From the NCBI GenBank assembly GCA_005778355.1, contig SXON01000145.1, forward strand, positions 1 to 64,000: DNA of 64,000 nucleotides, given 5' to 3'. Shown here one piece after another: positions 744 to 51,760 of this stretch. Source of the stretch: Pseudomonadota bacterium (GTDB lineage: Bacteria > Myxococcota_A > UBA796 > SXON01). Below the pieces are notes generated by a model. That model was not told the DNA's origin. It saw nothing but the letters and a program-made list of their open reading frames with translations, and made no database searches. The first letter of the stretch is position 1. Each line of letters begins with the position of its first letter. Position numbers and translations under genes: made by a program.

Positions 744-1715
744 CTATCCCGCCGCGCGGCCCGCGAGGTAGGTCCGGAGCCCGACGGCCAGGCACTCGCC
801 GAAGCCCGCCGCGCGCTCGCGCTGGTCGAGACGCAGCTCCACCACGACGGCCGCGGTCGATCCCGCCCGAGCGAAGGCGTCGGCCCAGTCGTTGCCCTCG
901 TCGGCGCTCCAGTCGTTCACCCTGGCGCCGAACTCGCTGGCGCCAGGGAGATCGAGCCAGGCCGGGTTGAGCGGATCGCCCCAGGCGGCGTCTTGTAGTC
1001 GCGACGCTGTGTCTGCGGGCAAGAGCCCCTGCTCACCCGCCCAGCGGAAGAAGCGCCCCGCCACGAACCGGGAGGACACCGCCCAGGGCGAGCGCGAGGG
1101 GTAGGGGCTCGGGCCGGGGACAAATGCCGGGAATACCGAGTCGAGCACGGCGAGGTCGAGGTCGGCCCGTTGGCCGGAGAGGGATCCCGGCAGGAGACGC
1201 TCCAAACCATGGAGCTGCGACAGGTCGGAGGTGTTCCACGGACTCCCGGGGATGAGCGCGCACTCGGGGCGCCGGGTGGGTCGACGGGAGCTCGAGGCCT
1301 GGTCGTAGCTCGATCCTTTCTTCCCGTACTCGTGGACCTCCACCATCACCATGCTGTCGCGACTCGCTTCGCGGATCACTGCCAACCGCGCGTAGTAGCG
1401 AGCACGCAGCTCGGCCGCCCCGCCGTCGACGAGCCGTGAACGGCTCCACTTGTCCACCGCGCTCTTGCCGAAAAGTGTCTCGACCTCGGGCGGGCGCTCC
1501 AGGAAGGGGCGGCCGAGATCGAGAACGTCGCGGGGCAGTTCCGCGGCGAGCACGTCGATGCCGAGCGCGCGGGCGCAGGCGGCGGCGGCGACTTCGGCAC
1601 CGCGCTCGTACCAGTCGTCGAAGCGGTCGGGAAGCTCGGCGTGGCACTCGGGACCGTAGAAGCGGTAGCCCGACTCGGGCAAGGCGCCGGCGTGGGGGGT
1701 GACGAGGGTCAGCAT
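744..1715 (-). CDS. N-formylglutamate amidohydrolase-fold protein
   Basis: A protein of about 323 residues whose motif order resembles N-formylglutamate amidohydrolases: TPHAG near the N-terminus, PRDVLDLGRP, an AELRARYYARL helix, then MVEVHEYG where the family has its metal-binding D/E-x-H. Family members are zinc-type hydrolases that remove formyl or acyl groups from amino acids in the cytosol. Similarity in the C-terminal half is weak, so the substrate is unknown. The start is taken at ATG 1715. An upstream in-frame start would run into the divergent gene, and a GATAGGC element lies 9 nt before 1715. The gene is head-to-head with the HEPN-helicase gene, 62 bp apart, so the two probably share a promoter region. 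Its stop codon overlaps the putative promoter of the next gene. Confidence 0.6.
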   Translation of the reverse strand: MLTLVTPHAGALPESGYRFYGPECHAELPDRFDDWYERGAEVAAAACARALGIDVLAAELPRDVLDLGRPFLERPPEVETLFGKSAVDKWSRSRLVDGGAAELRARYYARLAVIREASRDSMVMVEVHEYGKKGSSYDQASSSRRPTRRPECALIPGSPWNTSDLSQLHGLERLLPGSLSGQRADLDLAVLDSVFPAFVPGPSPYPSRSPWAVSSRFVAGRFFRWAGEQGLLPADTASRLQDAAWGDPLNPAWLDLPGASEFGARVNDWSADEGNDWADAFARAGSTAAVVVELRLDQRERAAGFGECLAVGLRTYLAGRAAG

Positions 1716-1764
1716 TGCCGCTCGGCCTATCCGACCCGGGGCCTCCCGCTCCTGCCAGAAGCGG

Positions 1765-1770
1765 TACACT
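1765..1770 (+). promoter_or_regulatory. -10-like TACACT 7 nt before the helicase start
   Basis: TACACT matches TAnnnT and ends 7 nt before GTG 1778. No purine-rich ribosome binding site lies between them, so the mRNA would be leaderless or nearly so. The divergent gene has GATAGGC at 1731-1725 on the other strand, which makes this a compact two-way promoter region. Confidence 0.4.
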
Positions 1771-1777
1771 CCCGACC

Positions 1778-4700
1778 GTGAACCTGTCGCAGCTCCGAGT
1801 GTCGGCCAGGACGAGTCTCGCCGAGTTCGAGCGCAGCCTTGGCCGCGACCACCCGAGCCAGGTCATCAAGGCGGCGGCGCCCGTCCTCGAGGGCTGGATG
1901 CGCGCGGTCTGCCGCATCGTTGCCGACAGCCTCCCGGCCGGTAGCGACCGAGACCGACTGAACACCGCCCTGACCGTGGAGGGGCACGGGAAACCGTTGA
2001 TCGATCTCGGTCTCGGCGAGTTGGTGAACGTGTGGGAGAAGGCCCGGATCGAGGACTCGTGGAAACTGCTCGACAAGCAGGTGACGGCGCCCGCCTTCGC
2101 GCAGCTCAAGGCGCTGCGCCACACCGCGATCCACGACCGTGACAACCTGCGGCCCCTCGACGCCTACCTTTTCGTCGCCAACCTCCGCTACTTCGCGGAG
2201 CGGCTGGTGTTGGTACTGCCGGACGAAAACGGCGAAGCCCCTCGTCTCGCGGGCGAGTCCCCGGCTCTTCCCCGGGAGCCCGCCCGCCCATGGCGCGCCG
2301 TAGACAGCGCCTTCCTCGACAGCCTCTCGTTGCTCCCGGGCGACGAGCTCGTGCGCTACTTCGACGGTGCCGACCCCGCCTTCGCCATCGGCGTAGACCC
2401 TCGGGTGCCGATGTTGCCGGTGGGACAGCGCGTGCTCGACGCGCTTCGCGCTGCTAACGGCGTCACCATCGACCTCCTTGCCGCGCCCACCGGCGAGGGA
2501 AAGTCAACCCTCCTCGTGCAGCTGGCGGCACGACTCGCACGGGAGCCCGACACGCGTGTGTACTGGCTCGACCCCGGGGCCGGCGGCTTCGACGTGGCGG
2601 CCACCCGGGCGCTGGTCGCGACCACAGGACGCACGGTGTTCGTGATCGACCAGCTCGACGAGCACGTGGATGGCATCGTGGGCCTCGTCCGCGGCCAGCG
2701 CGAGGTGATCCTCGGCTCTGCCGCGAGCGTGCATATCGTGGGCGCCTCACGACGCTACCGGTGGGAAGCGGCCGCCCCGAGGATCAAGGGCATCGGGAGT
2801 GCGTGTCAGACACGGCGCTACGACAGCGCCGGCATCGACCTCGCGAGCGCCCAGGCCATCGTTACCGCATGGGCAGGACAGGGGCGAGAGGGGCTGCGGA
2901 AACTCCACGACGTGCCGGAGCCTGCACGCGCTGAGCACCTGCTCGAGGCGGTGAGGGCCCGGCACGACAGCAAAGACGGGCTCTTTGGCGGGCTGCTCAA
3001 CGTGCGCTTCGGGCCCGAGGAGCTCCGGGCACACCTGGTCTCGCTCATTGGCGACCAGGTCCGCGCCGACAACCAGGTGCACCTCGCTTACCTGTCCATC
3101 GCCTGCGCCGACGCCCTCGCCGTCGATGGGCTCGACGAGCGGGTCTTGTGCCAGGCGCTCGGCGTCAGCGAGCCGGACTTCCGGTCGCAGATCCGCCCGT
3201 CCCTTCGCGGCGAGGCCGTCGGTCCGACGAGGGGCGACGCGGGTGCAGCGTGGCAGGCGCGGCACGCCGACATCGCGCGCGCGGCGGTGGCGGTGGCGGT
3301 CGACACTCTCGGGGCCGCCACCGTTGGTCGCACCATCGCCGCCCTGGTGAAAGCGGCCGTCCGTCACCAGACGGCGCTCTACATCCCCATCCACGATCAC
3401 GCGACCCTGACACACGTCGCGGTGTGGCTCGAGCGCCGCATCGGCGAGCAGCTGGGCGAGGCCGACGTGACGCACGACATCGCGGTGGAGGTGGCCCGCG
3501 CCGCCTGGTCCGCCGAGGCGCGAGCGGACTACCTCGCCGTGTACCTCTCGCGATTGCGTCGTGCGCGTCGACACCAGGAGGCCGCGAGCGTGGCCCGCGA
3601 ACACTGGGACCCAGTGTGCGGGCAGGCGCCCTATCCGGATGCGATTCGGAGCGTGGCGATCAACTGGGCGCTCGCGGAGGAGGCCTTCCACAATCCCACC
3701 GACGCGCTGTGGCTGGCGATGCTGTCCCTCTCGGATCAACTCCGCCGACCCGGCGTGGAAGTGCCCGACCCGCTGAGCCCCCTCGATCTCAAGAAGGGGC
3801 TCTTGACCCTCGCCCGGCTGGCGTCGCGGGTGGGCTACGCGCAGCCCTTGTCCGACCCGCTCCGGGCCCTCGACGGCCTCGACGCCGAGCTCCCGACGGA
3901 TGGCGACCCCGATCCTCCCGAGTCCTGGGCGCCCGCCGCGCCCGTGCCGCGGGCGAGCGAGCTGGCGGAGCGTCTTGCCCTGGTCGAGGGCCGCGCCGAC
4001 GACACGCACCTGCCGGACGGCCTCAAGGCGCTCTGTCCGCTCACGTTCAACACGCTACGCACCGCCTACCAGCGCAACATCGCCTCGCGCTTCGGCCCGG
4101 CGATCCCCTTCTTGCCACCCCGCGACCAGAGTCACGACGCCACCGCCCTGTTCCTCGCCTTTTCTGAGTACCTCGCCAGCATCGGCTTCGAGCTCTTCCC
4201 GGCGCAGGCCGAGGCGGTCGAGGTGCTGGCCGAGGGGCCCAACCTGCTCTTGAACACACCCACGGGCTCGGGAAAGTCGATGGTCGGGCTATTCGCGCAC
4301 TTCGCCGCCCTCGCCCAGGGCGTGCGGAGCGTGTACACCGCCCCCACCAAGGCGCTGGTCAACGAGAAGTTCTTCTGGCTCTGCAATCACTTCGGCGCGC
4401 GGCGGGTGGGCCTCGCCACGGGAGACGCCACGGTGAATCACGAGGCGCCCGTGCTCGTGTGCACTGCCGAGGTGCTCGCGTCGATGGCGCTTGGCGACCC
4501 GGACCCGTCGCGCTTCGACTGGATCGTGATGGACGAGTTTCACTACTACGACGACGCCCAGCGGGGCCAGGCGTGGCTGCTGCCGCTGCTGGAAATGCGT
4601 CACGCGCACTTCGCCCTCTTGTCGGCGACGGTCGGCAACGCGGCGGCCCAGGCCAAGACGGTGGCGGCCCAGACGGGGCGGCCCACCCGGCTGGTCCAAT

Positions 4701-6622
4701 CCGACGTCCGCCCCGTGGCGCTGGAGTTCGAATACAAGGAACAAGTCCTGCGGCAGAGCCTCGTCGACATTCGCGACAACAAGCTTTGCCCCGCCTACGT
4801 GGTGTCGTTCACCAAGCCGGACGCGGCCGAGCGCGCCGCCGATCCTATCCGCATGGTGGTTACCGAAGGGCCCCGAGACACTGATGAACGCAAGCTCAAA
4901 CGAGCGAAGTTGCTCGAGTCTTCCCGGTTCGACACCCCCTACGGATCGACGCTCCGAAAGCTCCTCCGCGACCGCGTGGGCGTGCACCACGCTGGGCTCT
5001 TGCCACGCTATCGGCTCCTGGTCGAACGCTGCGCGCAGCAGGGGCTCCTCGACTTCGTGAGCGGCACCGACACCCTCGGCGTGGGGGTGAACCTGCCCAT
5101 CCGGACTGTCCTGATCACCCAGCTCTACAAGCGGGACAACCACGAGGTGCGCCACCTCAGTGCCCGAGAGTTCCACCAGGTGGCCGGGCGCGCGGGACGC
5201 AAGGGGCACGACGACCAGGGCACCGCCTGGGTGCAGGCACCCGAGCACGAGATGCAGAACCGTCTCGACAAGGCGCTGGGAAAGAAGAAGAAATCACCCG
5301 CCCAACCACCCGAAGGCTACAAGGGCTGGTCGCGCGACAAGTTCGAAGGGCTGGTGAAGGAGTCGGCCTCGCCGCTGACCACGCGGCTGAATGTCGACGG
5401 GGCCCTGGTCATGCGGATGCTCAGCCGGAAGGGAGGAGGTGTCAACGCGCTCCGCTCGCTCATCGACCGGGCGCAGTTGACCCGAGGGGAGACGGAACGC
5501 GCCCACGCACGTTCCCGGGAACTACTGGCGAAACTCGGCGCGACGGGGCGCGTGCAGCCCGACGCCCACGGCGCACTCCGCATCGAGTCGATCGATGATG
5601 GAGGCCGCAGCGAGCGCCCGCTGCACATCTGGCTCAAGCATGCCCTCCTCGCCGACGCCTTCGACGCGCGGCTACCGGATTTCGCCCTCCGAGTCCTGAG
5701 CTTCGTCGAGTCGGTGCTCTACGAGCCCACCAGCGTGCAACGGGCACAGCTGCGGGCCGCGCGCAGCAAGGCCAAGCAGGAAGCGTACGCGGCGCGGCGA
5801 GCGGGCGACACCGAGGCGGCCGAGGCCATCCAGGGGAAGATCGACAACGACGCGGTGACGCGGGAGTCGCCCTGCGCCGACGAGATCCGAGTGTCCTTCG
5901 AAGCCTGGCGCGTGTTGAACCCATGGTACGAGGGGCCGCCGCCGGAGCCTCGCTTCATCCTCCGCGAGATGTACGAGGGGCACTTCGGCTTCAACGACTA
6001 CATCCACGAGTACCGGCTGGGCTACGAGGAGGGCCAGCTCCTGCGCTACCTGTCGGAGGCCTACCGCGTGCTCGAGGTGGAGCTGCCGGGCTTTCAGTAC
6101 ATTCAGAATCACTTCGAGCTGCGCGAGCTCCGCGCCTGGCTCGACACCCTCGTGCGAAGCGTCGACGCCAGCCTGGTGCACGAGTGGGAGCGCTTCATGC
6201 TCGCCAGCGACGTGTCGGAGATCGAGGAAACCGCCCCGCCCCGGCCGCCGCAAACCACGCTGGACTCGCCGCAGTTCCGCCGCGAGCTGCGAACGGCGGC
6301 CTTCGGCTGGGTTCGCGCCTTCGCCCGCCTCGGCGACTCGCACCTCGAAAACGACGCTGCGGAGGCGCTCGCCGGGCCGGGCTTTGCTACCGAGTCCGCC
6401 AAGGACGCCTACCGGCAATTCCGTCGCGAGCATCAAGGCCTCATCATCGACGCCAACGCCCGGGGCCCCGAGCACTTCCAGTACGAGGGCGGCCGTGTTT
6501 TCCAGCAACTCGTCGACGAGGAAGGCGATCTGGACTGGGTGATCGAGGGCGAGGTCGATCGCGAGCTAAGCCAGCGGGAGGGCTTCGTCGTGGTGTTCGT
6601 TCGCCGCATCGGCCCGGCGTAG
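1778..6622 (+). CDS. HEPN-like / STAND-like P-loop ATPase / Ski2-like helicase fusion (1614 aa)
   Basis: A giant multidomain protein. Residues 1-150 are helical and contain R114-H-x3-H119, the R-x4-H pattern of HEPN ribonucleases. Residues 195-450 hold a P-loop ATPase: Walker A PTGEGKS (K242) and Walker B VFVIDQLDE (D291, D294-E295), as in STAND NTPases. Residues 450-780 look alpha-helical. Residues 790-1210 form a superfamily 2 helicase: motif I TPTGSGK (K833), motif II DEFH (919-922), SAT (949-951) and motif VI QVAGRAGR (1134-1141). Residues after 1210 resemble the DUF3516-type C-terminus of bacterial Ski2-like helicases, which are usually only about 850 residues long. The start is GTG 1778, because the in-frame ATG at 1715 overlaps the divergent gene. 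A role in RNA surveillance or phage defence is inferred; no homologous system is recognised. Confidence 0.85.
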   Translation: MNLSQLRVSARTSLAEFERSLGRDHPSQVIKAAAPVLEGWMRAVCRIVADSLPAGSDRDRLNTALTVEGHGKPLIDLGLGELVNVWEKARIEDSWKLLDKQVTAPAFAQLKALRHTAIHDRDNLRPLDAYLFVANLRYFAERLVLVLPDENGEAPRLAGESPALPREPARPWRAVDSAFLDSLSLLPGDELVRYFDGADPAFAIGVDPRVPMLPVGQRVLDALRAANGVTIDLLAAPTGEGKSTLLVQLAARLAREPDTRVYWLDPGAGGFDVAATRALVATTGRTVFVIDQLDEHVDGIVGLVRGQREVILGSAASVHIVGASRRYRWEAAAPRIKGIGSACQTRRYDSAGIDLASAQAIVTAWAGQGREGLRKLHDVPEPARAEHLLEAVRARHDSKDGLFGGLLNVRFGPEELRAHLVSLIGDQVRADNQVHLAYLSIACADALAVDGLDERVLCQALGVSEPDFRSQIRPSLRGEAVGPTRGDAGAAWQARHADIARAAVAVAVDTLGAATVGRTIAALVKAAVRHQTALYIPIHDHATLTHVAVWLERRIGEQLGEADVTHDIAVEVARAAWSAEARADYLAVYLSRLRRARRHQEAASVAREHWDPVCGQAPYPDAIRSVAINWALAEEAFHNPTDALWLAMLSLSDQLRRPGVEVPDPLSPLDLKKGLLTLARLASRVGYAQPLSDPLRALDGLDAELPTDGDPDPPESWAPAAPVPRASELAERLALVEGRADDTHLPDGLKALCPLTFNTLRTAYQRNIASRFGPAIPFLPPRDQSHDATALFLAFSEYLASIGFELFPAQAEAVEVLAEGPNLLLNTPTGSGKSMVGLFAHFAALAQGVRSVYTAPTKALVNEKFFWLCNHFGARRVGLATGDATVNHEAPVLVCTAEVLASMALGDPDPSRFDWIVMDEFHYYDDAQRGQAWLLPLLEMRHAHFALLSATVGNAAAQAKTVAAQTGRPTRLVQSDVRPVALEFEYKEQVLRQSLVDIRDNKLCPAYVVSFTKPDAAERAADPIRMVVTEGPRDTDERKLKRAKLLESSRFDTPYGSTLRKLLRDRVGVHHAGLLPRYRLLVERCAQQGLLDFVSGTDTLGVGVNLPIRTVLITQLYKRDNHEVRHLSAREFHQVAGRAGRKGHDDQGTAWVQAPEHEMQNRLDKALGKKKKSPAQPPEGYKGWSRDKFEGLVKESASPLTTRLNVDGALVMRMLSRKGGGVNALRSLIDRAQLTRGETERAHARSRELLAKLGATGRVQPDAHGALRIESIDDGGRSERPLHIWLKHALLADAFDARLPDFALRVLSFVESVLYEPTSVQRAQLRAARSKAKQEAYAARRAGDTEAAEAIQGKIDNDAVTRESPCADEIRVSFEAWRVLNPWYEGPPPEPRFILREMYEGHFGFNDYIHEYRLGYEEGQLLRYLSEAYRVLEVELPGFQYIQNHFELRELRAWLDTLVRSVDASLVHEWERFMLASDVSEIEETAPPRPPQTTLDSPQFRRELRTAAFGWVRAFARLGDSHLENDAAEALAGPGFATESAKDAYRQFRREHQGLIIDANARGPEHFQYEGGRVFQQLVDEEGDLDWVIEGEVDRELSQREGFVVVFVRRIGPA

Positions 6623-6630
6623 CCTCACGG

Positions 6631-6645: not shown

Positions 6646-7491
6646 ATGTTCCAGACCGACCTCCTCTCCTCGCAGACCATCCTCGTCACCGGCGGCGGCT
6701 CGGGCCTCGGCCGCGCCATGGCCGAACGTTTCGGCGCGCTCGGCGCCCGTGTCGGCGTACTCGGCCGCCGGGTGGAGCCCCTCGAAGAGACCGTCGCCGC
6801 CATCCGTGCCGCCGGGGGCACTGCGGCCTGCGCCAGCGCCGACGTGCGCGACCCGCACGGGGTGCACCTCGCCATCGACGCGATCGAGGCCGAGCTTGGC
6901 CCGGTCAACGGGCTGGTGAACAACGCGGCCGGCAACTTCCTCTCGGCCGCGGAAGACCTCTCGCCCAACGCCTTCGACAGCGTCGTGCGCATCGTGCTCC
7001 ACGGCACTTTCCACACCACTCAGGACGTGGGCAAGCGCATGATCGAGCGCGGGACGGGCGGCACGATGTTGTCGATCGTCACCACCTACGCCTGGATGGG
7101 CTCGGCCTTCGTCCTGCCGAGCGCCTGCGCCAAGGCCGGCGTGCTCGCCATGACGCGGTCGCTGGCCGTCGAGTGGGCCTGCTACGGCATTCGTAACAAC
7201 GCCATTGCCCCGGGCCCTTTCCCCACCGAGGGCGCCTTCTCGCGACTCATGGCAGGCGACATCGAGGAGCAGGCCAAGAAGCAGATCCCGCTCGGCCGCT
7301 TCGGCGAGCCCGGCGAGCTCGCCAATCTTGCCGCCTATATGATGTCGCCCGGGGCCGCCTACATGACCGGCGAGTGCGTGGTGCTCGACGGCGGCGAGTG
7401 GCTGCGCGCCGGCCAGGAATTCAGCCGCTACACCGAGTATCCGCGAGAGGCGGTGAAGCAGGTCTTCGGGGCGATGCGCCCGCGGAAGTAG
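6646..7491 (+). CDS. SDR oxidoreductase, 2,4-dienoyl-CoA reductase type
   Basis: A 281-residue short-chain dehydrogenase that probably reduces 2,4-dienoyl-CoA or a related enoyl-CoA with NADPH during unsaturated fatty-acid oxidation. It has the cofactor motif TGGGSGLG (15-22) and NNAAGNF starting at N92. The usual active-site YxxxK is replaced by S159-A-C-A-K163. That change, with the following KAGVLAMTRSLAVEW, is typical of the DECR/FadH-like SDR branch, where the catalytic Tyr lies elsewhere. IAPGPFPTEGAFSR and YMTGECVVLDGGEWL complete the family pattern. It starts 23 nt after the helicase stop, behind a GATAGCC element, so it probably has its own promoter. Confidence 0.85.
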   Translation: MFQTDLLSSQTILVTGGGSGLGRAMAERFGALGARVGVLGRRVEPLEETVAAIRAAGGTAACASADVRDPHGVHLAIDAIEAELGPVNGLVNNAAGNFLSAAEDLSPNAFDSVVRIVLHGTFHTTQDVGKRMIERGTGGTMLSIVTTYAWMGSAFVLPSACAKAGVLAMTRSLAVEWACYGIRNNAIAPGPFPTEGAFSRLMAGDIEEQAKKQIPLGRFGEPGELANLAAYMMSPGAAYMTGECVVLDGGEWLRAGQEFSRYTEYPREAVKQVFGAMRPRK

Positions 7492-7615: not shown

Positions 7616-8068
7616 ATGCCTTTCAAACACATCGTCGTCCCCGTCGACTTCTCCAAGCCCTCCCTGCACGCCCTGCGGATGGCCATCAACCTCGCCCGCC
7701 ACGGCAAGGCCCGGCTCACGCTGATCCACGTGATCCTGCCCCACGTCTCGGCGCTCGCGGCCGATGTCCCGGGCTGGGCGGCCTTCGACCCCGAGCTCAT
7801 CCTCCGCTACCAGCAGGAGCTCGAAACCGAGGCTCGTCACGGGCTCGAGCGCACCGCCAAGGAAGAGGTTCCGGAAGATGTTCCCTACGAGATCGTCGTG
7901 GTGACCGGCCCCATCGCCGACAGCCTCAACGACGAGGTGAAGTCGCGACAGGCCGACCTCATCTGCATCGGCACCACCGGCCGCACGGGCCTGCCTCACC
8001 TGCTGCTCGGCAGCGTGGCGGAGCGCCTCGTGGCCCGCTCCTCCGTCCCGGTGCTGGTGGCCCATTGA
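7616..8068 (+). CDS. Universal stress protein (UspA family)
   Basis: A 150-residue single-domain Usp protein of the cytosol. It begins MPFKHIVVPVDFSKPS, has the central VVVTGPIADSL strand, and ends with the ATP-binding-type loop GTTGRTGLPHLLLGSVAERLV followed by SSVPVLVAH, the usual C-terminus. ATG 7616 is preferred because GGAG (7605-7608) is 7 nt away; ATG 7610 would be only 1 nt from it. It is the first gene of a coupled operon: its TGA stop overlaps the TTG start of the CoA-transferase. Usp members at the head of metabolic operons often respond to redox or starvation state; that role here is inferred. Confidence 0.92.
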   Translation: MPFKHIVVPVDFSKPSLHALRMAINLARHGKARLTLIHVILPHVSALAADVPGWAAFDPELILRYQQELETEARHGLERTAKEEVPEDVPYEIVVVTGPIADSLNDEVKSRQADLICIGTTGRTGLPHLLLGSVAERLVARSSVPVLVAH

Positions 8069-9333
8069 GCCCCGAGCAGGCGGTCGCTCTCCTCCCAGAC
8101 TCCGGACGCGTGGCCATTGGTGCCAATGCCGGTGAGCCACGCGATCTGGTGCGCGCGCTGGGCGAGGCCGGTCCACGTTTCACTGGACTGGAGGTGGTGC
8201 AGGTGCTCTCCTTCGGCAGCGAGGCGCTGGTGCGGCCGGAGCTCGCGGGCCACCTCAGGGTCAACGCGCTCTTCATCGGCCCGGCCGTCCGCCAGGCCGT
8301 CGCCGAGCAACGTGCCGATTACACCCCGGTGTTTCTCTCGGAGGTCCCCGCGCTTTTCCTGCCGGGTGGTCCCCTCCCCCTTCACGCAGCGCTCGTCCAG
8401 GTGTCGCCCCCCGACGCCCGCGGCTGGTGCTCGATGGGCGTGACGGTCGACGTGATGCGCTCGGCGGTCGACAACGCGCCCCTGGTGATCGCCGAGGTGA
8501 ACCCTCGCATGCCGCGCACCTTCGGCGACAGCTTCATCCACGTGTCGCGACTGCACGCCATGGTTCCCGTCGACCATCCCCTGCCCTCGCACGCCCCCGA
8601 GGTCGACGAGCCCACCGTGGTGGCGCGCATCGCTGATCACGTCGCCTCGCTGGTCGACGATGGCAGCACCATCCAGGCCGGCATCGGCGCCATCCCCGAC
8701 GCCGTCTTGCGACGCCTCACCGACCGCCGCAACCTCGGCATCCACACCGAGCTGCTCGGCGACGGACTCGTCGATCTCATCGAGCGTGGCGTGGCCAACG
8801 GCACGCAGAAACCCTGGTGGCCCCGCAAGGCCGTCACCAGCTTCGTGCTCGGCACCCAGCGGGCCTACGACTTCGTCGACCAGAACCCGGCCGTGGAGAT
8901 GCAACCCTCCGACGTGGTGAACGACCCGGCGGTGATCGCGCGCCACCCCAAGATGGTGGCGGTGAACAGCGCCCTGTCCATCGACCTGACCGGGCAGGTG
9001 AACGCCGACAGCATCGGTACGCGTTTCTACTCGGGCATCGGGGGACAGGTGGACTTCCTCCGGGGCGCCGCGCGCTCAGTGGGGGGCCGTCCGATCGTCG
9101 CGTTGCCGTCGACCGCCAAGGGTGGGACAATCTCGCGCATCGTGCCTACCCTCGCCCCGGGCGCCGGCGTCGTCACCAGCCGGGGCGACGTGCGTTTCGT
9201 GGCTACCGAGTTTGGCTGCGTCGATCTGCACGGCAAGAGCGTGCGCGACCGCTCCCGGGCGCTCATCAGCATCGCCCACCCCAACTTCCGCGACGCCCTG
9301 ACCGAACGAGCGAGGAACCTCGGCTATGTCTGA
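8065..9333 (+). CDS. Acetyl-CoA hydrolase/CoA-transferase family protein
   Basis: A 422-residue family I CoA-transferase (acetyl-CoA hydrolase / 4-hydroxybutyrate CoA-transferase group) that moves CoA between carboxylic acids. It shows SMGVTVDVMRSAVDNAP, the glycine-rich IQAGIGAIPDAVL loop, and NLGIHTELLGDG, in which E229 matches the glutamate that forms the covalent CoA-thioester. GVVTSRGDVRFVATEFG near the C-terminus is also typical. No ATG or SD fits. The TTG at 8065 overlaps the usp stop (TTGA) and gives a normal-length N-terminus SPEQAVALLPDSGRVAIG. Its end overlaps the next gene by 8 nt. Sitting beside an NAD-formate dehydrogenase, it may feed or drain an acyl-CoA linked to formate, but the substrate cannot be read from the sequence. 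Confidence 0.88.
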   Translation: MSPEQAVALLPDSGRVAIGANAGEPRDLVRALGEAGPRFTGLEVVQVLSFGSEALVRPELAGHLRVNALFIGPAVRQAVAEQRADYTPVFLSEVPALFLPGGPLPLHAALVQVSPPDARGWCSMGVTVDVMRSAVDNAPLVIAEVNPRMPRTFGDSFIHVSRLHAMVPVDHPLPSHAPEVDEPTVVARIADHVASLVDDGSTIQAGIGAIPDAVLRRLTDRRNLGIHTELLGDGLVDLIERGVANGTQKPWWPRKAVTSFVLGTQRAYDFVDQNPAVEMQPSDVVNDPAVIARHPKMVAVNSALSIDLTGQVNADSIGTRFYSGIGGQVDFLRGAARSVGGRPIVALPSTAKGGTISRIVPTLAPGAGVVTSRGDVRFVATEFGCVDLHGKSVRDRSRALISIAHPNFRDALTERARNLGYV

Positions 9334-10678
9334 CGCCCTGCGCGCCCTTTTCCGTCGCGCTCACGGGCAGCTACCGCCCGCGCCCCAGCACGGCGTCGAG
9401 AGCTTCTATGCACTCGGCCACGAGCTCGACGTGGTGTGCGACGGCACCGCCTGCCACTTCGCGGGCGGACCGGGGATCGACCCGCAGCTGCCTCGCGTTC
9501 GCTGCGTGGGCCACTGCTACGAAGCCCCGTCGCGTCTCACGGGGCCTTCGGTCGCGACCGGCAACGGCCACCCTGCCCTCTTGAAGAACCTCGCCAGCAC
9601 GCCCGTGGTGCTGCGTCACCTCCTCACCGACAGTCGCGGCGAGGCTGATCACGACGACCTCCCTTCGGGCGACGACATCCTCGCTGTCATCGAGGGCGTG
9701 GGCCTGCGCGGGCGGGGCGGCGCCGCCTACCCCACCGCCGCGAAGTGGAAGGTGGCAAAGGCTCAGCCCTCCGCCGAGAAATGGGTGGTGGCCAACGGCG
9801 ACGAGGGCGACCCCGGCTCGTGGATCGACCGTTTGTTACTGGAACGTTCCCCGCACGCGGTGCTCGCGGGGATGCGCGCCTGCGGTCGCGCCATCGGCGC
9901 CAATCGGGGCGTGGTGTACATTCGCGGCGAGTACCCCCGGGCCCGCGCGGCGGTCGAGGCGGCGCTCGCCGAGGAACGTTTCGACGACATGCGCATCCAC
10001 GTGGTGGGTGGGCATGGCAGCTACGTGGTGGGCGAGGAGACGGCGCTACTCAACGCCATCGAGGGACAGCGCGGCGAGCCCCGCCCGAAGCCCCCCTACC
10101 CGGCGGTGTCGGGGCTCTTCGGCAAGCCAACCGTGGTGCAGAACGTGGAGACGCTGTCGATCATCCCGCACATCGTCCGGGCCAACTCGGGAGCCAGCCA
10201 CAAGGCGATCTGCGTGGCGGGCGCGGTGCGCGAGCCGGCCTGCGTGGAGGTGACCCTCGGCACGCCCTTGCGACGCGTGCTCAACGAGGCCTGCGGTGGT
10301 CCGCGCGAGGGCAGCCGGTGGACGATGGCGCTGGTGGGCGGCCCGCTCGGCCGGGTGATCCCGGCCGCGGCCTTCGACGTGGAGCTGGCGTACGACGCGC
10401 TCCCGGGCCTCGGGCATGGCGGCGTGGTGGTCTTCGACGCCTCGGTCAGCCCCGGGGCGCTCTTCCGCCACCTCGCCGAGTTCGCTCGCTCGGAGTCCTG
10501 CGGCAGTTGCACGCCGTGCCGGGTGGGCTCGGCCCGCATCGCCGACATGCGCGATACCCCCTCGCTCGACCGCCTGCTCACCACCATGGAGATGGGGAGC
10601 CTCTGCGGCTTCGGCCAGGGGGTGCCGCGACCGATTCGCGACCTGGTGGAACTCTGCGGCGAGCGGGTGCTCGGATGA
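9326..10678 (+). CDS. NAD-dependent formate dehydrogenase, NuoEF/HoxF-like beta subunit
   Basis: A 450-residue diaphorase subunit that passes electrons from formate oxidation to NAD+. A short N-terminal thioredoxin-like domain has four Cys for a 2Fe-2S cluster (CDGTAC near residue 35 and CVGHC near residue 57). The NuoF-like core follows: FMN loop GLRGRGGAAYPTAAKW, VANGDEGDPGSW, the nucleotide site VGGHGSYVVGEETALLNAIEG, and the C-terminal 4Fe-4S ligands ESCGSCTPC with a later Cys in SLCGFG. In FdsGBA enzymes the NuoE-like part is usually a separate FdsG protein; here it is shortened and fused. It overlaps the CoA-transferase by 8 nt and the alpha subunit by ATGA. Confidence 0.9.
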   Translation: MSDALRALFRRAHGQLPPAPQHGVESFYALGHELDVVCDGTACHFAGGPGIDPQLPRVRCVGHCYEAPSRLTGPSVATGNGHPALLKNLASTPVVLRHLLTDSRGEADHDDLPSGDDILAVIEGVGLRGRGGAAYPTAAKWKVAKAQPSAEKWVVANGDEGDPGSWIDRLLLERSPHAVLAGMRACGRAIGANRGVVYIRGEYPRARAAVEAALAEERFDDMRIHVVGGHGSYVVGEETALLNAIEGQRGEPRPKPPYPAVSGLFGKPTVVQNVETLSIIPHIVRANSGASHKAICVAGAVREPACVEVTLGTPLRRVLNEACGGPREGSRWTMALVGGPLGRVIPAAAFDVELAYDALPGLGHGGVVVFDASVSPGALFRHLAEFARSESCGSCTPCRVGSARIADMRDTPSLDRLLTTMEMGSLCGFGQGVPRPIRDLVELCGERVLG

Positions 10679-13200
10679 TCACGATCGACGGACAGGCGGT
10701 GGTCGCCCGGGGTTCCTTGCTCGACGTGGCGCGCGCCGCCGGGCGACCCCTCCCCACCCTGTGTCACGACCCCCGATTGCCACCCGGCGGGCACTGCCGC
10801 GCCTGCCTCGTCGAGATTGACGGCAAGCACGTGGCCGCCTGTACCACGCCCGCTCGAGAGGGCGCCGTGGTGCGCACCGACACCCCCGAGCTCCTGGCGT
10901 ATCGGCGCGACCTCGCCGAGCTGGTGCTGGCCGAGGCCGGTCCGGCTGGCGAGGCGGCGCACACCCTCCACACGATGGGCGCCACCGGCGAGCGATACCG
11001 TCACCAGCGGCACGGTTTGCACGACACGAGCCACCCCGTCATCAAGATCGGGCTGTCCGCCTGCATTCTTTGCCGTCGCTGCGTGTCGGCCTGCGAGAGC
11101 GTGCAAGGGGAGTTCGTGCTCGCGGTGGCCGGACGCGGCGCGGGCGCGCGCTTGTACTGGGACGACGAGTTCGCCCACAGCGGCTGCGTGAGCTGCGGTG
11201 CCTGTGCCGCCACCTGTCCCACCGGGGCGATCACCGACTGTCACAGCCACAGCGGCGAGGTCGTCCGCACCACCTGCGGCTACTGCGGCGTGGGCTGCCA
11301 GCTCGACGTGCACGTTGCCGGGGGAAAGGACGGCCACGAGGCTCACATCACCCGGGTCGACGGCGCGAACGTGGCGCCGAACCGCGGCCACCTCTGCGTG
11401 AAGGGCCGCTACGCCTACGCCCACGCCCGCCACGGGGATCGGCTGACGACACCGCTCATTCGCGACGCCAGCGGCGTGCTCGTCCCCGCCACCTGGGCGG
11501 AGGCCATCGAGCGGGTGGCCAATGGGCTGCGCCCCGGCGGCGTGGCCGGGCTCTCCTCGGCCCGGTGCACCAACGAGGAGAACTACCTCTTCCAGAAGTG
11601 GATCCGCCAGGGCTTTGGCACCAACGACGTGGACTGTTGTGCGCGCGTGTGTCACGCCCCCTCCGCCGCAGGCCTGCGCGCTGCCTTCGGCACCGGCGCC
11701 GCCACCAACAGCTTCGACGACATCGAGCGCGCCGACCTCCTGGTGGTCATCGGCGCCAACCCCACCGAGGCCCACCCCATCGTGGGGGCCCGCATCCGGC
11801 AGGCGGTGCTCCGGGGGGCGAAGCTCATCGTCATCGACCCGCGCGCCACCGCGCTCACGCACGTCGCCGACGTTCACCTCCAGGTGCACCCCGGGGCCAA
11901 CGTGCCGCTTTTCAACTCGCTGGCCAATGTGCTCGTGTCGCTCGGCAAGACCGCGCCCAGCGCCACGGGCTGGGACGAGTACGCCGCGGCCATCGTGGCC
12001 GACACCCCCGAGCGCTGGGCGAGCACCACCGGCGTTCCGGCTGCGGTCCTGCGGCAGGCGGGGCGGCTCTGGGCCGAGGCCAAGTCGCCGATGATGGTGC
12101 ACGGACTCGGCGTCACCGAGCACCTCCAGGGCGCCGAGTCGGTCACGCTCCTCTGCAACCTGGCCGTGCTCACCGGCGCGTTGGGGCGCCCCGGCGTGGG
12201 CGTCAACCCGTTGCGCGGCCAGACCAACGTCCAGGGCGCGGCCGACATGGGCTGCCAGCCCGACTTCGGCGCCGGCTACCAGCCGGTGGGCGGGGCGCCC
12301 GGACGCCGGCTCCCCGATATCTACGAGGCGGCGCGCCGCTCGGAGATCCGCGCCCTCTACATCATCGGGGAAGACGTGATCGTCACCGACCCCGAGCCCG
12401 AGAAGGTGGCGGCGGCGCTCGACAACCTCGACTTCATGGTCGTGCAAGAGCTCTTCCTCACCCGCACCGCCGCCATGGCCGACGTCGTCCTCCCAGGAGC
12501 GAGTTTCCTCGAGAAAGACGGGACATTCACCAGCGGCGAGCGCCGCGTGCAGCGGGTTCGCAAGGTGCTCGATCCCCCGGGCCAGGCGCGCGCCGACTGG
12601 GAGATCCTCCTCGACCTGATGCACGCCACCGGTTGTCCCCAGCCCTTCACCTCGCCCGGCGAGGTGATGGAGGAGGTGAGCCGGGTGGCCCCGCAGTTCG
12701 CGGGCGTGTCGTACTCGCGGATCGAGCAGCTCGGCAGCATCCAGTGGCCCGCCCCGGCCGAGGGACACCCCGGCACCGCGATCCTCCACACGGCCGAGAC
12801 CTTCCAGCCGAAGCTCCACGTCGTGAGCTGGAGCGCGTCGCCGGCCTTCCGAGGCGCGGGCCTCACCCTGATAACGGGCCGCCGTCTCGAGCACTACAAC
12901 GCCGGGAGCATGACGCGGCGGGGCGTACCCGGGAAGATCGTCACCCACGACGAGCTCGAGATCCACCCCGCTGACGCCGCCGACCGTGGCATCCGCGATG
13001 GGGAGCGGGTGTGCATCCGCAACGAGCACGGCGAGGCCCAGGCGGTGGCGCAGGTGACCGACCGCGTGCGCGAGGGCGAGTGTTTCCTCACCTTCCACTT
13101 CCCCGAGACGGGGACGAACCGCCTCGTGGGCGGCGTGCAGGATCGCTGGACGAGCTGCCCCGAGTACAAGGTAGGACGGGTGGAGGTTTCCCGGGCCTAG
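10675..13200 (+). CDS. NAD-dependent formate dehydrogenase, molybdopterin alpha subunit
   Basis: An 841-residue catalytic subunit that oxidises formate to CO2 at a Mo/W bis-MGD site in the cytosol. Domains in order: a 2Fe-2S ferredoxin domain (CHDPRLPPGGHCRACLVE), two 4Fe-4S motifs (CILCRRCVSAC and CVSCGACAATCPTG), the CGYCGVGCQL cluster of the molybdopterin domain, the active site CARVCHAPS with C326 as metal ligand, and a C-terminal MGD domain (GRRLEHYNAGSMTRR). The active-site codon is TGT, so this is a Cys enzyme and not a selenoprotein. It is coupled by ATGA to the beta subunit. No fdhD-type accessory gene is in the window. Its TAG stop lies in the palindrome CTAG, which also provides the stop of the convergent lipoprotein gene. 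Confidence 0.95.
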   Translation: MITIDGQAVVARGSLLDVARAAGRPLPTLCHDPRLPPGGHCRACLVEIDGKHVAACTTPAREGAVVRTDTPELLAYRRDLAELVLAEAGPAGEAAHTLHTMGATGERYRHQRHGLHDTSHPVIKIGLSACILCRRCVSACESVQGEFVLAVAGRGAGARLYWDDEFAHSGCVSCGACAATCPTGAITDCHSHSGEVVRTTCGYCGVGCQLDVHVAGGKDGHEAHITRVDGANVAPNRGHLCVKGRYAYAHARHGDRLTTPLIRDASGVLVPATWAEAIERVANGLRPGGVAGLSSARCTNEENYLFQKWIRQGFGTNDVDCCARVCHAPSAAGLRAAFGTGAATNSFDDIERADLLVVIGANPTEAHPIVGARIRQAVLRGAKLIVIDPRATALTHVADVHLQVHPGANVPLFNSLANVLVSLGKTAPSATGWDEYAAAIVADTPERWASTTGVPAAVLRQAGRLWAEAKSPMMVHGLGVTEHLQGAESVTLLCNLAVLTGALGRPGVGVNPLRGQTNVQGAADMGCQPDFGAGYQPVGGAPGRRLPDIYEAARRSEIRALYIIGEDVIVTDPEPEKVAAALDNLDFMVVQELFLTRTAAMADVVLPGASFLEKDGTFTSGERRVQRVRKVLDPPGQARADWEILLDLMHATGCPQPFTSPGEVMEEVSRVAPQFAGVSYSRIEQLGSIQWPAPAEGHPGTAILHTAETFQPKLHVVSWSASPAFRGAGLTLITGRRLEHYNAGSMTRRGVPGKIVTHDELEIHPADAADRGIRDGERVCIRNEHGEAQAVAQVTDRVREGECFLTFHFPETGTNRLVGGVQDRWTSCPEYKVGRVEVSRA

Positions 13201-16200
13201 TACCCCGGAAGCACAAACACCTGGCCGCCGTTGGTGGCGCTCTCGTCGGCATAGGGCGCGGACACCGCGAAGTCCTCGGTGCCGTCGCCATCGAGGTCGG
13301 TGAGGCCCGCCACCCGCGCGCCGAAGTAGCTACTGGCCGAGGGACCGGACCACGAGGCGTACTGGTCGGACGGCAGTGTGTAGGCACCGGACGCCTGGCC
13401 GCCCTGGAGGAGGTAGAGAATCCCCTCCCCGCTGGAACCACCCGTCGGCGCGCCCACCAGGAGGTCGTCGACACCATCGGCGCTCGCGTCGCCGAGCACC
13501 AGCGCGTAGCCCAGGTAGCTGCCCGAGGACTCGGCCGACGCCACCCAGTCGGCGGTGGCGAAGGTCTCGCTCCCGGACAAGGAGCCGCCCGCCCAGATGG
13601 AGACCGCACCGTAACCGTACGCGCCGAGGGCGAGGTCGTCCACCCCGTCGTCGTCGAAGTCGCCCACCGCCAGCGCGCCGTGGGTGCCGCCCAGGTAGGC
13701 GCTGGCCGCCGGCCCGGTGACCATCGTGTCGTAGGCCGACGACACCGTGGTGTCCGATTCACTCGGTGAGGACTCGCCCCCGTCGATCCAGCAGGTGCCC
13801 GCGTCGGTGCCACCGTCGTCGTCGCCCGGAGAGCAGCTGACGATGTCGTCGTAGCCGTCGTCGTCGAAGTCGCCGAAAACCACACCGGTACCAAGGTAGT
13901 CGGAGTTGCTGACACCCCGGACGTAGTAGCTCGCCTCGTCGGCGTCCATGCTCCCGGAGTCGTAGCCGTCGCCGTTGAGCGCCACGTACACGCGGCCGCG
14001 CGCGCTGGACGCGGACGGCGCCCCCATGGCGAGGTCGGCGCCGCCGTCGCCGTCCATGTCGCCAAAGGCCAGCGCCGAACCGAGGTAGCCGTTGTCGGAC
14101 ACGCCGATGATCGTCCCCTCGTCGATGCTCGAGGTCGAGTCGGTACCGGACTCGCCGTAGATGTCGAAAACGTACACCGAGCCGGCGTAGGTGCCGTCGC
14201 CCGCGTCGTAAGGTGCACCCACCGCCACCTCGCTGTAGCTGCCACCGTCGGCGTTGCCGAGCGCCAGCGCCGCGCCCGCCATGTCGGTGCTACCGCCATA
14301 AACGTCGAGGTAGCCGTCCTCGGCGTCGGCCGGGGTGTCGGCGTTGTCCTGGTCGTGGAAGCCCACGAGGCCCACGCTACTGTAGGTGTACCAGTAGTAG
14401 TCGTAGTCGTAGTAGGGCGAGCCGATGATCAGCTCGTCGTCGCCGTCGCTGTTGAGGTCGTCGCTCACGAGGAGCGCGCCGCTGCCGACGTAGTCTGAGC
14501 TGTTGCCGCCGGTCACGTACCAGTCACTCCAGTCCTCCGCCGCCATGTCGTCTTGGATGCCGCTGCAATCGTTGTCGGCGGCGTCGTAGCCCACCTCGGC
14601 CTCGCCGGGGTTCACGCTCGCGTCGCTGTCGTCACAGTCGGTGGCGTCCGTCACGTAGCCGCTCGGCGCGGTGCAGGAGACGGTGGTGCTCGACACGTCG
14701 CCGTAGCCGTCGCCGTCGCTGTCGGCGTAGTAGCTCGTGCTGCCGGCCAGGCCCTCGTCGACGGTACCATCGCAGTCGTCGTCCACGCCGTTGCAGGCCT
14801 CGGTCGCGGCTGGGCTCACACTCGCGGTCGTGTCGTCGCAGTCGGTGCTGTTGGCCACGTAGCCGGTGGGGGCCGAGCAGGCGTCGCGGTGGGTGGCGCT
14901 CTTTCCGTAGCCATCGCTGTCGGCGTCGCGGTAGTAGCGGGTGGCCACGCCCTCGTCGGTGTAGCCGTCGCAGTCGTTGTCGACCGAGTCGCAGGACTCG
15001 CTCGCGGCCGGGCTGATGGCGGCGTCGGCGTCGTTGCAGTCGTCGCCCGTGGCGAGGTAGCCAGCCGGGGCACTGCATGCCTCGCCCGCCGCAGTCTCGC
15101 CTCCGTAGCCGTCGCCATCGGTGTCGCTGTAGTAGGGCGTCATCGCGCCCTCGTCGATGCTGCCGTCGCAGTCCTCGTCGATCCCGTCGCAGGTCTCCGT
15201 GGCACCGGTGTTGACGGCGGCGCTGGTGTCGTCGCAATCGGTGCCGCCGTAGGCGCTGTCGTCCTCGCCGTCGCCGTCCTGGTCGAAGTCGCTCCCGCCG
15301 TCGCAGTCCTGGTCGATGCCGTCGTACCAGATCTCGGTCGCGCCGTTGTTGATGCTGGCGTCGGTGTCGTCGCAGTCCTGGCCGCCGTAGTCGCTGCTCT
15401 CGGAGCCGTCGCCGTCCTGGTCGTAGTCGCTGGCACCGTCGCAGTCCTGGTCGAAGCCGTCGTACCAGGTCTCCGGGGCCGAGGGGCTCACCGTCACGTC
15501 GGCGTCGTCGCAATCGTCGCCGCCGTAGGTGGCGTCGTCGTGGCCGTCGCCGTCCTGGTCGTAGTCGGACAGGCCGTCGCAGTTACTGTCGACGCCGTCG
15601 TAGTAGGTCTCGCCGGCGGCCGGGCTCACCGCGGCGTCCGCGTCGTTACAGTCGCCAGTCACCTCGCTGTAGCCGTCGCCGTCGCGGTCTTCCGTGCTCC
15701 GGGCCTCGTCCACCTCGCCGTCACAGTCGTCGTCCACCCCGTTGCCCTCGGTCTCGAAAACCCCGGGACTCACCGTCGCGTCGGTGTCGTTGCAGTCGCT
15801 TCCGCCGTAGCTGGCGGCGTCGTAGCCATCGCCGTCCTGGTCGTAGTCAGAGCGGCTGTCACAGTCGCCATCGACCCCGTCGTACCAGGTTTCCGCTGCG
15901 GACGGATTCACGCTCGCGTCGGTGTCGTTGCAGTCGTCGCCGCCGTAGGTGGCGTCGTCGTGACCGTCGGCGTCCTGGTCGTAGTCCGACAGGCCGTCGC
16001 AGTCCTGGTCGATGCCGTCGTACCAGACCTCGTCCGCGCCGCCGTTGATCGCCGGGTCGTCGGGGTCGCAGTCCTCGCTGTCAACGTAGCCGTCGCCGTC
16101 GCTGTCGAGCTCGGCCGTGCCCGCGAGGGCCACCACCACCGAGGGCTCGTCGGGGTCGTCGGAGCTGATGGTGAGCGCGCCGGTGTACTCGCCCACGTCG

Positions 16201-16556
16201 GAGGGCGAGAAGGTGACCGAGAGCTCGGTGCTGTCGCCGGGAACGAGGTAGGCGCCGGTGCTGTTCACCCGGAAGGGGGGCGAGCCGGTGGTGATGGTGA
16301 TCGAGGCCGTGAGCGGCAGCGTGCCGACGTTTTGCACGGTCACCGTGCCCGTCGACACCTCGCCCACCGCCAGGAGCCCGAGGTCAAGCTCCAGTGGCGA
16401 CACGTCGATGTCGGCCGCGTCGACCACGCCGGTGTCGCCGCTGTCGGTATCGGTATCGGTGTCATCGACTCCGCCCTCGGTGTCGCCGGTCTCCTTCGCG
16501 TCGTCGATCTCGTCGCGGCAGGCCAGGAGGAAGAGTGCAAGAGGAAGCAGGCGCAT
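13197..16556 (-). CDS. Lipoprotein with ASH-like domain, ten MopE-type repeats and FG-GAP repeats
   Basis: A 1119-residue surface or periplasmic lipoprotein. The signal peptide ends in lipobox LLAC (C13). A Thr/Asp-rich linker (DTDTDTDSGDTG) follows, then an ASH/choice-of-anchor-D-like domain (about 50-150) with VTVQNVGTLPLTASI and SSDDPDEPSVVVALAGTA. Ten repeats of the form DCnDtDasvnPsa-E-wyDgvDqDCDG..DyDqDGDG follow; these are acidic metal-binding repeats of the MopE/thrombospondin-3 kind and probably bind calcium. The last 420 or so residues are FG-GAP repeats (LAFGDMDGDGGADLAMGAP, VVFGDFDDDGYDDIVSC), as in beta-propeller adhesins. A role in surface adhesion or binding is inferred. It lies in tandem with a second protein of the same plan. 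Confidence 0.88.
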   Translation of the reverse strand: MRLLPLALFLLACRDEIDDAKETGDTEGGVDDTDTDTDSGDTGVVDAADIDVSPLELDLGLLAVGEVSTGTVTVQNVGTLPLTASITITTGSPPFRVNSTGAYLVPGDSTELSVTFSPSDVGEYTGALTISSDDPDEPSVVVALAGTAELDSDGDGYVDSEDCDPDDPAINGGADEVWYDGIDQDCDGLSDYDQDADGHDDATYGGDDCNDTDASVNPSAAETWYDGVDGDCDSRSDYDQDGDGYDAASYGGSDCNDTDATVSPGVFETEGNGVDDDCDGEVDEARSTEDRDGDGYSEVTGDCNDADAAVSPAAGETYYDGVDSNCDGLSDYDQDGDGHDDATYGGDDCDDADVTVSPSAPETWYDGFDQDCDGASDYDQDGDGSESSDYGGQDCDDTDASINNGATEIWYDGIDQDCDGGSDFDQDGDGEDDSAYGGTDCDDTSAAVNTGATETCDGIDEDCDGSIDEGAMTPYYSDTDGDGYGGETAAGEACSAPAGYLATGDDCNDADAAISPAASESCDSVDNDCDGYTDEGVATRYYRDADSDGYGKSATHRDACSAPTGYVANSTDCDDTTASVSPAATEACNGVDDDCDGTVDEGLAGSTSYYADSDGDGYGDVSSTTVSCTAPSGYVTDATDCDDSDASVNPGEAEVGYDAADNDCSGIQDDMAAEDWSDWYVTGGNSSDYVGSGALLVSDDLNSDGDDELIIGSPYYDYDYYWYTYSSVGLVGFHDQDNADTPADAEDGYLDVYGGSTDMAGAALALGNADGGSYSEVAVGAPYDAGDGTYAGSVYVFDIYGESGTDSTSSIDEGTIIGVSDNGYLGSALAFGDMDGDGGADLAMGAPSASSARGRVYVALNGDGYDSGSMDADEASYYVRGVSNSDYLGTGVVFGDFDDDGYDDIVSCSPGDDDGGTDAGTCWIDGGESSPSESDTTVSSAYDTMVTGPAASAYLGGTHGALAVGDFDDDGVDDLALGAYGYGAVSIWAGGSLSGSETFATADWVASAESSGSYLGYALVLGDASADGVDDLLVGAPTGGSSGEGILYLLQGGQASGAYTLPSDQYASWSGPSASSYFGARVAGLTDLDGDGTEDFAVSAPYADESATNGGQVFVLPGY

Positions 16557-16601
16557 GGGGGGATCCGGGGACTCACGCGCGTGGTGCCCGGACGAGGCCT
16601 A

Positions 16602-19997
<3,396 letters not shown>

Positions 19998-50969: not shown

Positions 50970-51760
50970 GTCACGTCTCGACCCTGAAACTACACCAGCT
51001 GCGTCTCGGCGAGTTGCCCGGCGACGAGGCCGCGCGCTGCCAGGCCCACCTCGATGGCTGCGCGCTCTGCCAGGCGCGGCTTGGCCACCAGGCCGAGGTC
51101 CGCCGCGACTTCGAGGCCATGCCCATCCCGCTGGCGATCGCTCGTCCCCGGTGGCAGCGGATGGCCCTCGGCGTCGTCCCGCTGCTCGCGGCCGCGCTCG
51201 TGCTCTTTGCGCTCTCGCCCGGCACCCCTCCCAGGAAGGCACCGGTCGACGAGACGCCCGTCACCGAGACACCCGTTCTTGTCGGACCCATCGCCGAACC
51301 CGGCCCCGTCGCGACACCTGCGGCCCCCGTCGCCGTCGAGGTGGTCGCGCCGCTCGCCCCGAAGAAGTCGACGACGCGCACCAAGGGCGCGTCGATGCCT
51401 CGGCTCGAGGCCTGGGTGGAGGCCGGCCAGAGCGAACGCCCGGTGTATCCCGGGGAATCGCTCGGCGCCGGCGCGCGCGTCCAGTTGCGTTACGACGCGC
51501 TCGGCAAGAACTTCGTCACGCTCGCCGGTCGCGACAGTAACGGCGTCGTGGAGGTCTACGCGACCATCGCCGCCACGGCGCGTGGCCTGCAGAGCGCCCC
51601 GTTCGCGCTCACGCTCGACGACAGCAAGGGCGAGCAGGCCTTCTTCGCCCTGCTCTCCGACACGCGCCTCGACCCCGAGTCCGTGAAAATGGCGCTGACG
51701 AAGAACCCGGTGCGAATGGACGGCGCTATCGTGACGTCGCTGGTGCTACGGAAGGATTGA
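50966..51760 (+). CDS. ZAS-type membrane anti-sigma factor with extracytoplasmic domain
   Basis: A 264-residue single-pass membrane protein. The cytosolic N-terminus has the zinc anti-sigma pattern H28-x3-C32-x2-C35 in RCQAHLDGCALCQARL. One helix (MALGVVPLLAAALVLFALSPG) crosses the membrane near residue 75. A Pro/Val-rich stalk follows, then an outer domain of about 110 residues (LEAWVEAGQSERPVYPGESLGAGARVQLRYDALGKNFVTLAG, ...QAFFALLSDTRLD) resembling the DUF4384-type ligand or stress-sensing domain. It should hold the ECF sigma factor inactive until a signal outside the membrane releases it. It is coupled to the caspase-fold gene by TTGA. Confidence 0.82.
   Translation: MSHVSTLKLHQLRLGELPGDEAARCQAHLDGCALCQARLGHQAEVRRDFEAMPIPLAIARPRWQRMALGVVPLLAAALVLFALSPGTPPRKAPVDETPVTETPVLVGPIAEPGPVATPAAPVAVEVVAPLAPKKSTTRTKGASMPRLEAWVEAGQSERPVYPGESLGAGARVQLRYDALGKNFVTLAGRDSNGVVEVYATIAATARGLQSAPFALTLDDSKGEQAFFALLSDTRLDPESVKMALTKNPVRMDGAIVTSLVLRKD

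Follow-up and report, generated by a model that had tools for sequence, protein, structure and literature searches.

A fused gene joining an nSTAND5 ATPase to an Mtr4/Ski2-like DUF3516 helicase: a candidate STAND-type conflict protein

Known systems and the layout of the fused protein

In Avs5 (AVAST type 5; SIR2-nSTAND3-repeats) and other STAND receptors, the order of effector, STAND switch and C-terminal sensor is established; human SAMD9 has the same order and has been named as the structural relative of Avs5 (PMC12931631). HamB, the Ski2-like helicase of Hachiman, scans nucleic acid and keeps a nuclease in check before activating it; Hachiman HamAB and AbpAB both couple such a helicase sensor to a nuclease effector (PMC12278908). 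HEPN domains are combined with STAND/ORC-type ATPases in conflict systems such as HEPN-STAND-TPR-S1 (Npun_F6454 and others) and the HEPN-DUF499 ATPases (PMC3710099, PMC12839542).

The window analysed here, 64,000 nucleotides of contig SXON01000145.1 (assembly GCA_005778355.1), contains a gene of 1614 codons, which runs on the forward strand from GTG at 1778 to the stop at 6622 in a single frame without an internal stop. The original prediction had described its product as one chain carrying R114/H119, K242, D291, D294-E295, an SF2 helicase and DUF3516, and these residue numbers are right. The features are as follows.

1778..6622, + strand: complete fused gene, 1614 aa, GTG start (open reading frame and Pfam)
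1778..2272, + strand: residues 1-165, all-helical N-terminal domain at the effector position, putatively HEPN-like (predicted model, weak fold matches)
1889..1903, + strand: E38-x3-R42, which fits the upstream Ex3[KR] element of many HEPN families (definition in PMC3710099)
2117..2134, + strand: R114-H115-x3-H119 motif (RHTAIH, residues 114-119) at the end of predicted helix 104-119 (definition in PMC3710099)
2354..2776, + strand: nSTAND_NTPase5 domain, residues 193-333 (PF25199, E=2.9e-22; folds SAMD9 2e-7, NLRC4 1e-3)
2486..2509, + strand: STAND Walker A, PTGEGKST (TGEGKST from residue 238; K242; read from the motif)
2636..2662, + strand: STAND Walker B, VFVIDQLDE from residue 287 (D291/D294/E295; D291 and D294 invariant among relatives)
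2777..3877, + strand: residues 334-700, helical region common to the helicase-less relatives, with the invariant R495-H496 (comparison of relatives)
4181..5257, + strand: Ski2/Mtr4-like SF2 helicase core, residues 802-1160, every motif intact (Pfam, PDB matches, motifs)
5237..6601, + strand: DUF3516 C-terminal region, residues 1154-1608 (PF12029, E=6e-69)
1719..6627, no strand: stretch of about 4.9 kb that G042 and G043, two sister genomes, lack (empty site; DNA alignment)
744..1715, - strand: flanking gene on the left, divergent, 323 aa, weakly matching FGase (identity to the sisters 87-88%)
6646..7491, + strand: flanking gene on the right, an SDR-family dehydrogenase (identity to the sisters 94-95%)

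Two Pfam families match the fused protein above their cut-offs: PF25199, with a score of 79.5 bits against a cut-off of 34, and DUF3516. A DEAD match lies at residues 808-954, and the helicase motifs are TPTGSGKS at 827 (K833), DEFHY at 919, SAT at 949 and AGRAGRKG at 1136. As sequence matches, the ATPase and helicase assignments are far above chance. The gene in the window is the only complete fused copy found so far.

The model of residues 1-745, built on four alignment rows, was confident in the STAND part (local pLDDT about 70-87). Its best match in the PDB was the human antiviral protein SAMD9 (E=2e-7), with NLRC4 lower down (E=1e-3); the global TM-scores were low (about 0.2). The Arg-His pair corresponding to R495-H496 is kept in six of six cores examined. 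By Pfam and predicted fold, the middle domain is confirmed as a STAND NTPase of the nSTAND5 type, in agreement with the STAND-style P-loop ATPase read from the motifs at the outset.

The helicase part is closest in the PDB to yeast Mtr4/Dob1 (E about 6e-46), followed by Ski2 and Hel308. PADLOC matches to HamB were obtained for this part, and identity with Hachiman was rejected on this account: the matches reflect likeness of the helicase core only, and Mtr4/Dob1 scores better. The fused protein further differs from Hachiman in being one chain with a STAND switch in between and no HamA, and the adjacent 323-aa gene has no PADLOC match. It resembles Avs5 and SAMD9 in order, and SAMD9 also in the STAND fold, whereas it differs from Avs5 in having nSTAND5 instead of nSTAND3 and a helicase at the sensor position; the best 25 of the 40 PADLOC hits at E<1 included no Avs model. 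HEPN-STAND-TPR-S1 and HEPN-DUF499 proteins lack the Ski2/DUF3516 helicase, and the Swt1-type HEPN profile fails on residues 1-165. Neither DUF3516 nor nSTAND5, searched by family name, led to a paper, and no description of this domain order was found in the literature searched; the original prediction had likewise recognised no described system with it.

The N-terminal domain

HEPN domains are defined by R-x4-6-H with a polar residue after the arginine, and many families have an Ex3[KR] element upstream (PMC3710099). The window protein agrees with this description in both respects: R114-H115-x3-H119 places histidine, one of the permitted residues (N, D, H), after R114, and E38-x3-R42 lies upstream. 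The motif alone proves little, because R-x4-H arises in 31% of cases when residues 1-165 are shuffled; R-[polar]-x3-H, the stricter form, arises in 9%.

The single-sequence model of residues 1-174 was all helical, with seven predicted helices and a pLDDT of 55. In a fold search with this weak model, the HEPN protein 2hsb (TM 0.43/0.56) and the HepT chain of the toxin-antitoxin complex 7bxo (TM 0.41/0.50) were found at E of about 2. These two had the highest target-length-normalised TM-scores (0.56 and 0.50) among the matches listed, and none of the matches was significant, all E-values being above 0.6. Residues 1-165 had no match in Pfam; of the HEPN profiles made from same-phylum sets, DUF4145 aligned out of register and Swt1 was not above chance. 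For residues 1-161, no relative at a convincing E-value was found in 284 genomes, plasmids and viral contigs, and the other fused copies (G065, G069 and G050) all begin inside the gene at contig ends, so that their N-termini are absent. In other words, the motifs and the weak fold matches stand on the side of the HEPN-like domain originally proposed, while profiles, Pfam and E-values give it no backing. That residues 1-165 form a HEPN domain is considered to be a fair guess with slightly favourable odds, rather than a finding.

Relatives and genomic setting

DUF3516 is present in 253 of 379 genomes of the phylum, nearly always in one copy and mostly in open frames of 840-900 codons, and DUF3516 helicases are also present in Corynebacterium glutamicum and other actinobacteria. 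These standalone helicases (about 850 aa; mostly 830-900 aa in the phylum) bear out the earlier remark that such proteins are normally half the length of the fused one. They share a homologous helicase and DUF3516 with it, at about 39% identity, which is also the value against same-genus standalone copies, whereas they lack residues 1-780 and fall in a separate clade. In the source genome, the fused protein is the sole DUF3516 match. The same holds for G065, G069 and G050, of the same class as the window, where the sole match is a divergent helicase with 43-46% identity to the window protein over helicase and linker. The helicases of G065 and G069 run upstream into the helical region, and that of G065 also into the STAND domain; in G050 the linker is visible before the contig ends. 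This linker, LTFxxLRxAYQRxIxxRFGP, is common to the fused forms, and none of the standalone proteins inspected begins with it.

In a tree of 63 rows, the four fused helicases formed one clade (SH-aLRT 98) spread over three families, whereas the standalone helicases of the class formed their own supported clade, broadly tracking taxonomy. This clade, together with the low identity to own-genus copies, means that the fused helicase is a separate lineage and not an orthologue of the household helicase. No match to the fused helicase, the core or the N-terminus was found in viral contigs, and the fused form was absent from phage and plasmid tblastn searches. In the fused copy of G065 C260 (L012), the Walker A lysine of the STAND domain is lost (GGGATT) and the helicase motifs are intact; this STAND ATPase may be inactive, judging from the motif. 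Inactive STAND modules have been proposed as nucleic-acid receptors (PMC8195603).

Two long frames were rejected as further fusions. In G058 the helicase starts at the usual start and the upstream frame resembles antisense read-through; the frame of G056 was judged alike from its sequence and from having no PF25199 match above the cut-off. In L117 (G058 C355), frameshifts, real or due to assembly, break a standalone DUF3516 helicase.

Strong, near-full-length matches to PF25199 occur in only five of 379 genomes of the phylum. The helicase is missing from the nSTAND5 proteins of G369, G065 C803, G356 and G284. Those of G065 C803, G356 and G369 share the PF25199 ATPase, the helical arm and an N-terminal effector with the fused protein, and differ in lacking the helicase and in having other effector domains. 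HD-CE precedes nSTAND5 in G369 (Polyangium sp. y55x31), a partial SIR2_2-like match below the cut-off does so in G065 C803, and SIR2, read in two frames with one half above and the other at the Pfam cut-off, does so in G356; the N-terminus in G284 has no assigned domain. Identity of the proteins of G369 and G065 C803 to the window core (ATPase and helical arm) is 26-28%, and a contig profile search with the core alignment, a single narrow pattern, returned only G065 and G369 again.

Some of these relatives have defence genes as neighbours. The G356 gene directly adjoins the class 1 DISARM genes DrmMI (E=0) and DrmD (1e-301), the G065 C803 gene adjoins SLFN_AlbA_2, DUF4365 and an IS66 transposase, and a NOV_C protein is close to the G369 gene. 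In L046 (G356, 8061-18256), a frameshift lies between the SIR2 halves of the SIR2-nSTAND5 gene beside DrmMI and DrmD.

Around the window gene, in contrast, the neighbours are metabolic (fatty-acid, formate and stress genes), and the defence island that the original prediction had proposed to look for is not found there; that expectation holds for some helicase-less relatives (G356, G065) and fails for the window gene. PADLOC gave only a generic kinase, 15 kb away, among the neighbours tested. This Ser/Thr kinase-type protein (window 21468-24419, - strand) matches PD-T4-6 through its kinase domain, and the match is probably generic.

The 323-aa gene and the SDR dehydrogenase are also present in the sisters G042 and G043, with 87-95% protein identity, and there the start codons of the two flank genes are about 35 bp apart. 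The DNA is colinear up to window position 1718 and resumes at 6628 (G043) or 6644 (G042), the intervening 4.9 kb being the fused gene. Since it is cleanly missing at the same 35-bp gap in two sister genomes, the fused gene is accessory; whether it was gained in the window lineage or lost in the sisters, it is dispensable either way. The pattern that would have spoken against the prediction, homologues confined to housekeeping genes of fixed synteny, was not what was found. No repeat longer than 7 bp exists at the ends of the insert, which means that there is no transposon signature, and the host-like codon usage gives no sign of recent import. The N-terminal/STAND part was not found in the other same-genus genomes searched. 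A DUF3516 match is absent from both sisters, which are 90-91% complete, although most same-genus genomes have one. The 323-aa protein itself (window 744-1715, - strand) has its weak FGase match at E=0.05, and in the family it is found only in the two sister genomes.

Proposed mode of action and alternative readings

A modular reading, and with it the logic of effector, NTPase switch and motor first suggested for this protein, is backed by the SIR2 or HD-CE domains that fill the N-terminal slot of relatives and by the patchy presence or absence of the gene as a single unit. At the level of sequence, this supports the nSTAND5 core as belonging to conflict proteins made of effector, switch and sensor modules, the helicase here taking the place of the sensor. 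The best explanation is that the fused gene is accessory and encodes, on its own, a STAND-type conflict protein, most probably directed against phages; to this reading we give a probability of roughly one half (0.48).

In such a protein, the Mtr4/Ski2-like helicase with its DUF3516 tail would act as the sensor by binding to, or tracking along, RNA or DNA that is aberrant or foreign, by analogy with HamB of Hachiman. The nSTAND5 ATPase and the helical arm might relay the signal by an ATP-dependent change of state or by oligomerisation. The first 165 residues, which probably form a HEPN RNase of divergent sequence with R114, H119 and perhaps E38, would then be released or dimerised so as to cut RNA, and this cleavage would halt phage growth or the cell. 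All these steps, from sensing and switching to the cleavage of RNA and protection from phages, are inferred. In its most specific form, the protein would be a single-chain immune receptor in which an Mtr4-like DUF3516-family helicase is the sensor, the STAND domain the switch and a HEPN domain the RNase, and it would perhaps have displaced the standalone helicase; this whole combination is tentative and seems somewhat unlikely to hold in every part. If true, its logic would parallel, in a bacterium, that of a RIG-I-type helicase sensor linked to a SAMD9-type STAND effector.

A real alternative is that the fused protein has displaced the household helicase, because standalone DUF3516 was found in none of the four carriers and in 44 of 67 other genomes of the class (hypergeometric probability about 0.02, calculated by hand with kinship ignored). 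The fused protein would then have taken over a job in RNA surveillance or processing, surveillance being the alternative that the original prediction had named, and its STAND and N-terminal parts would act as regulators or adaptors. In two genera, the standalone form is kept in G066 or G068, and the congener G065 or G069 has the fused form only; the exosome helicases Mtr4/Dob1 are the closest solved relatives, and the metabolic neighbours and host-like codon usage point in the same direction. Standalone copies could, on the other hand, have been missed, because the carrier assemblies are 72-95% complete. The sisters G042 and G043 and other genomes of the class have neither form, so the function is dispensable here. 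The fused clade is, moreover, divergent and scattered across families, and the STAND core bears conflict effectors elsewhere. This explanation is judged clearly less likely than the conflict protein.

Slightly less probable again is a conflict protein whose N-terminal domain is not a nuclease, being a dead HEPN, a helical adaptor or an oligomerisation domain, with the helicase or a partner as the effector. The frequency of R-x4-H in the domain shuffles, the failure of the DUF4145 and Swt1 profiles to align in register, and fold matches at E above 0.6 all agree with it, but R-H-x3-H and E-x3-R fit the HEPN pattern, lie in helices and are in a plausible order, and enzymatic effectors occupy this slot in the relatives. 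A STAND-type regulator, in signalling or transcription, that uses its helicase to remodel a nucleic-acid target and has no role in defence would suit a gene outside any defence island, and regulators exist among bacterial STAND proteins. This seems very improbable, however: a DNA-binding output domain was not found in the fused protein, and the relatives bear SIR2 or HD-CE and adjoin defence genes.

Sensing by STAND immune proteins usually occurs through repeat domains. The conflict protein preferred here would be a variant made of known parts in a new order, with a helicase, unusually, in the sensor slot. An exosome-type helicase at this position would mean that a household nucleic-acid motor could serve a STAND receptor, and that helicase sensors and STAND switches, two lines of immunity, could be joined in one easily moved gene.

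It should be mentioned that the window also encodes a caspase-like Peptidase_C14 protein (51757-53589, + strand; E=2.6e-15) with an apparent signal peptide, and a four-helix protein of the 23S rRNA intervening-sequence type (PF05635; 47987-48307, - strand).
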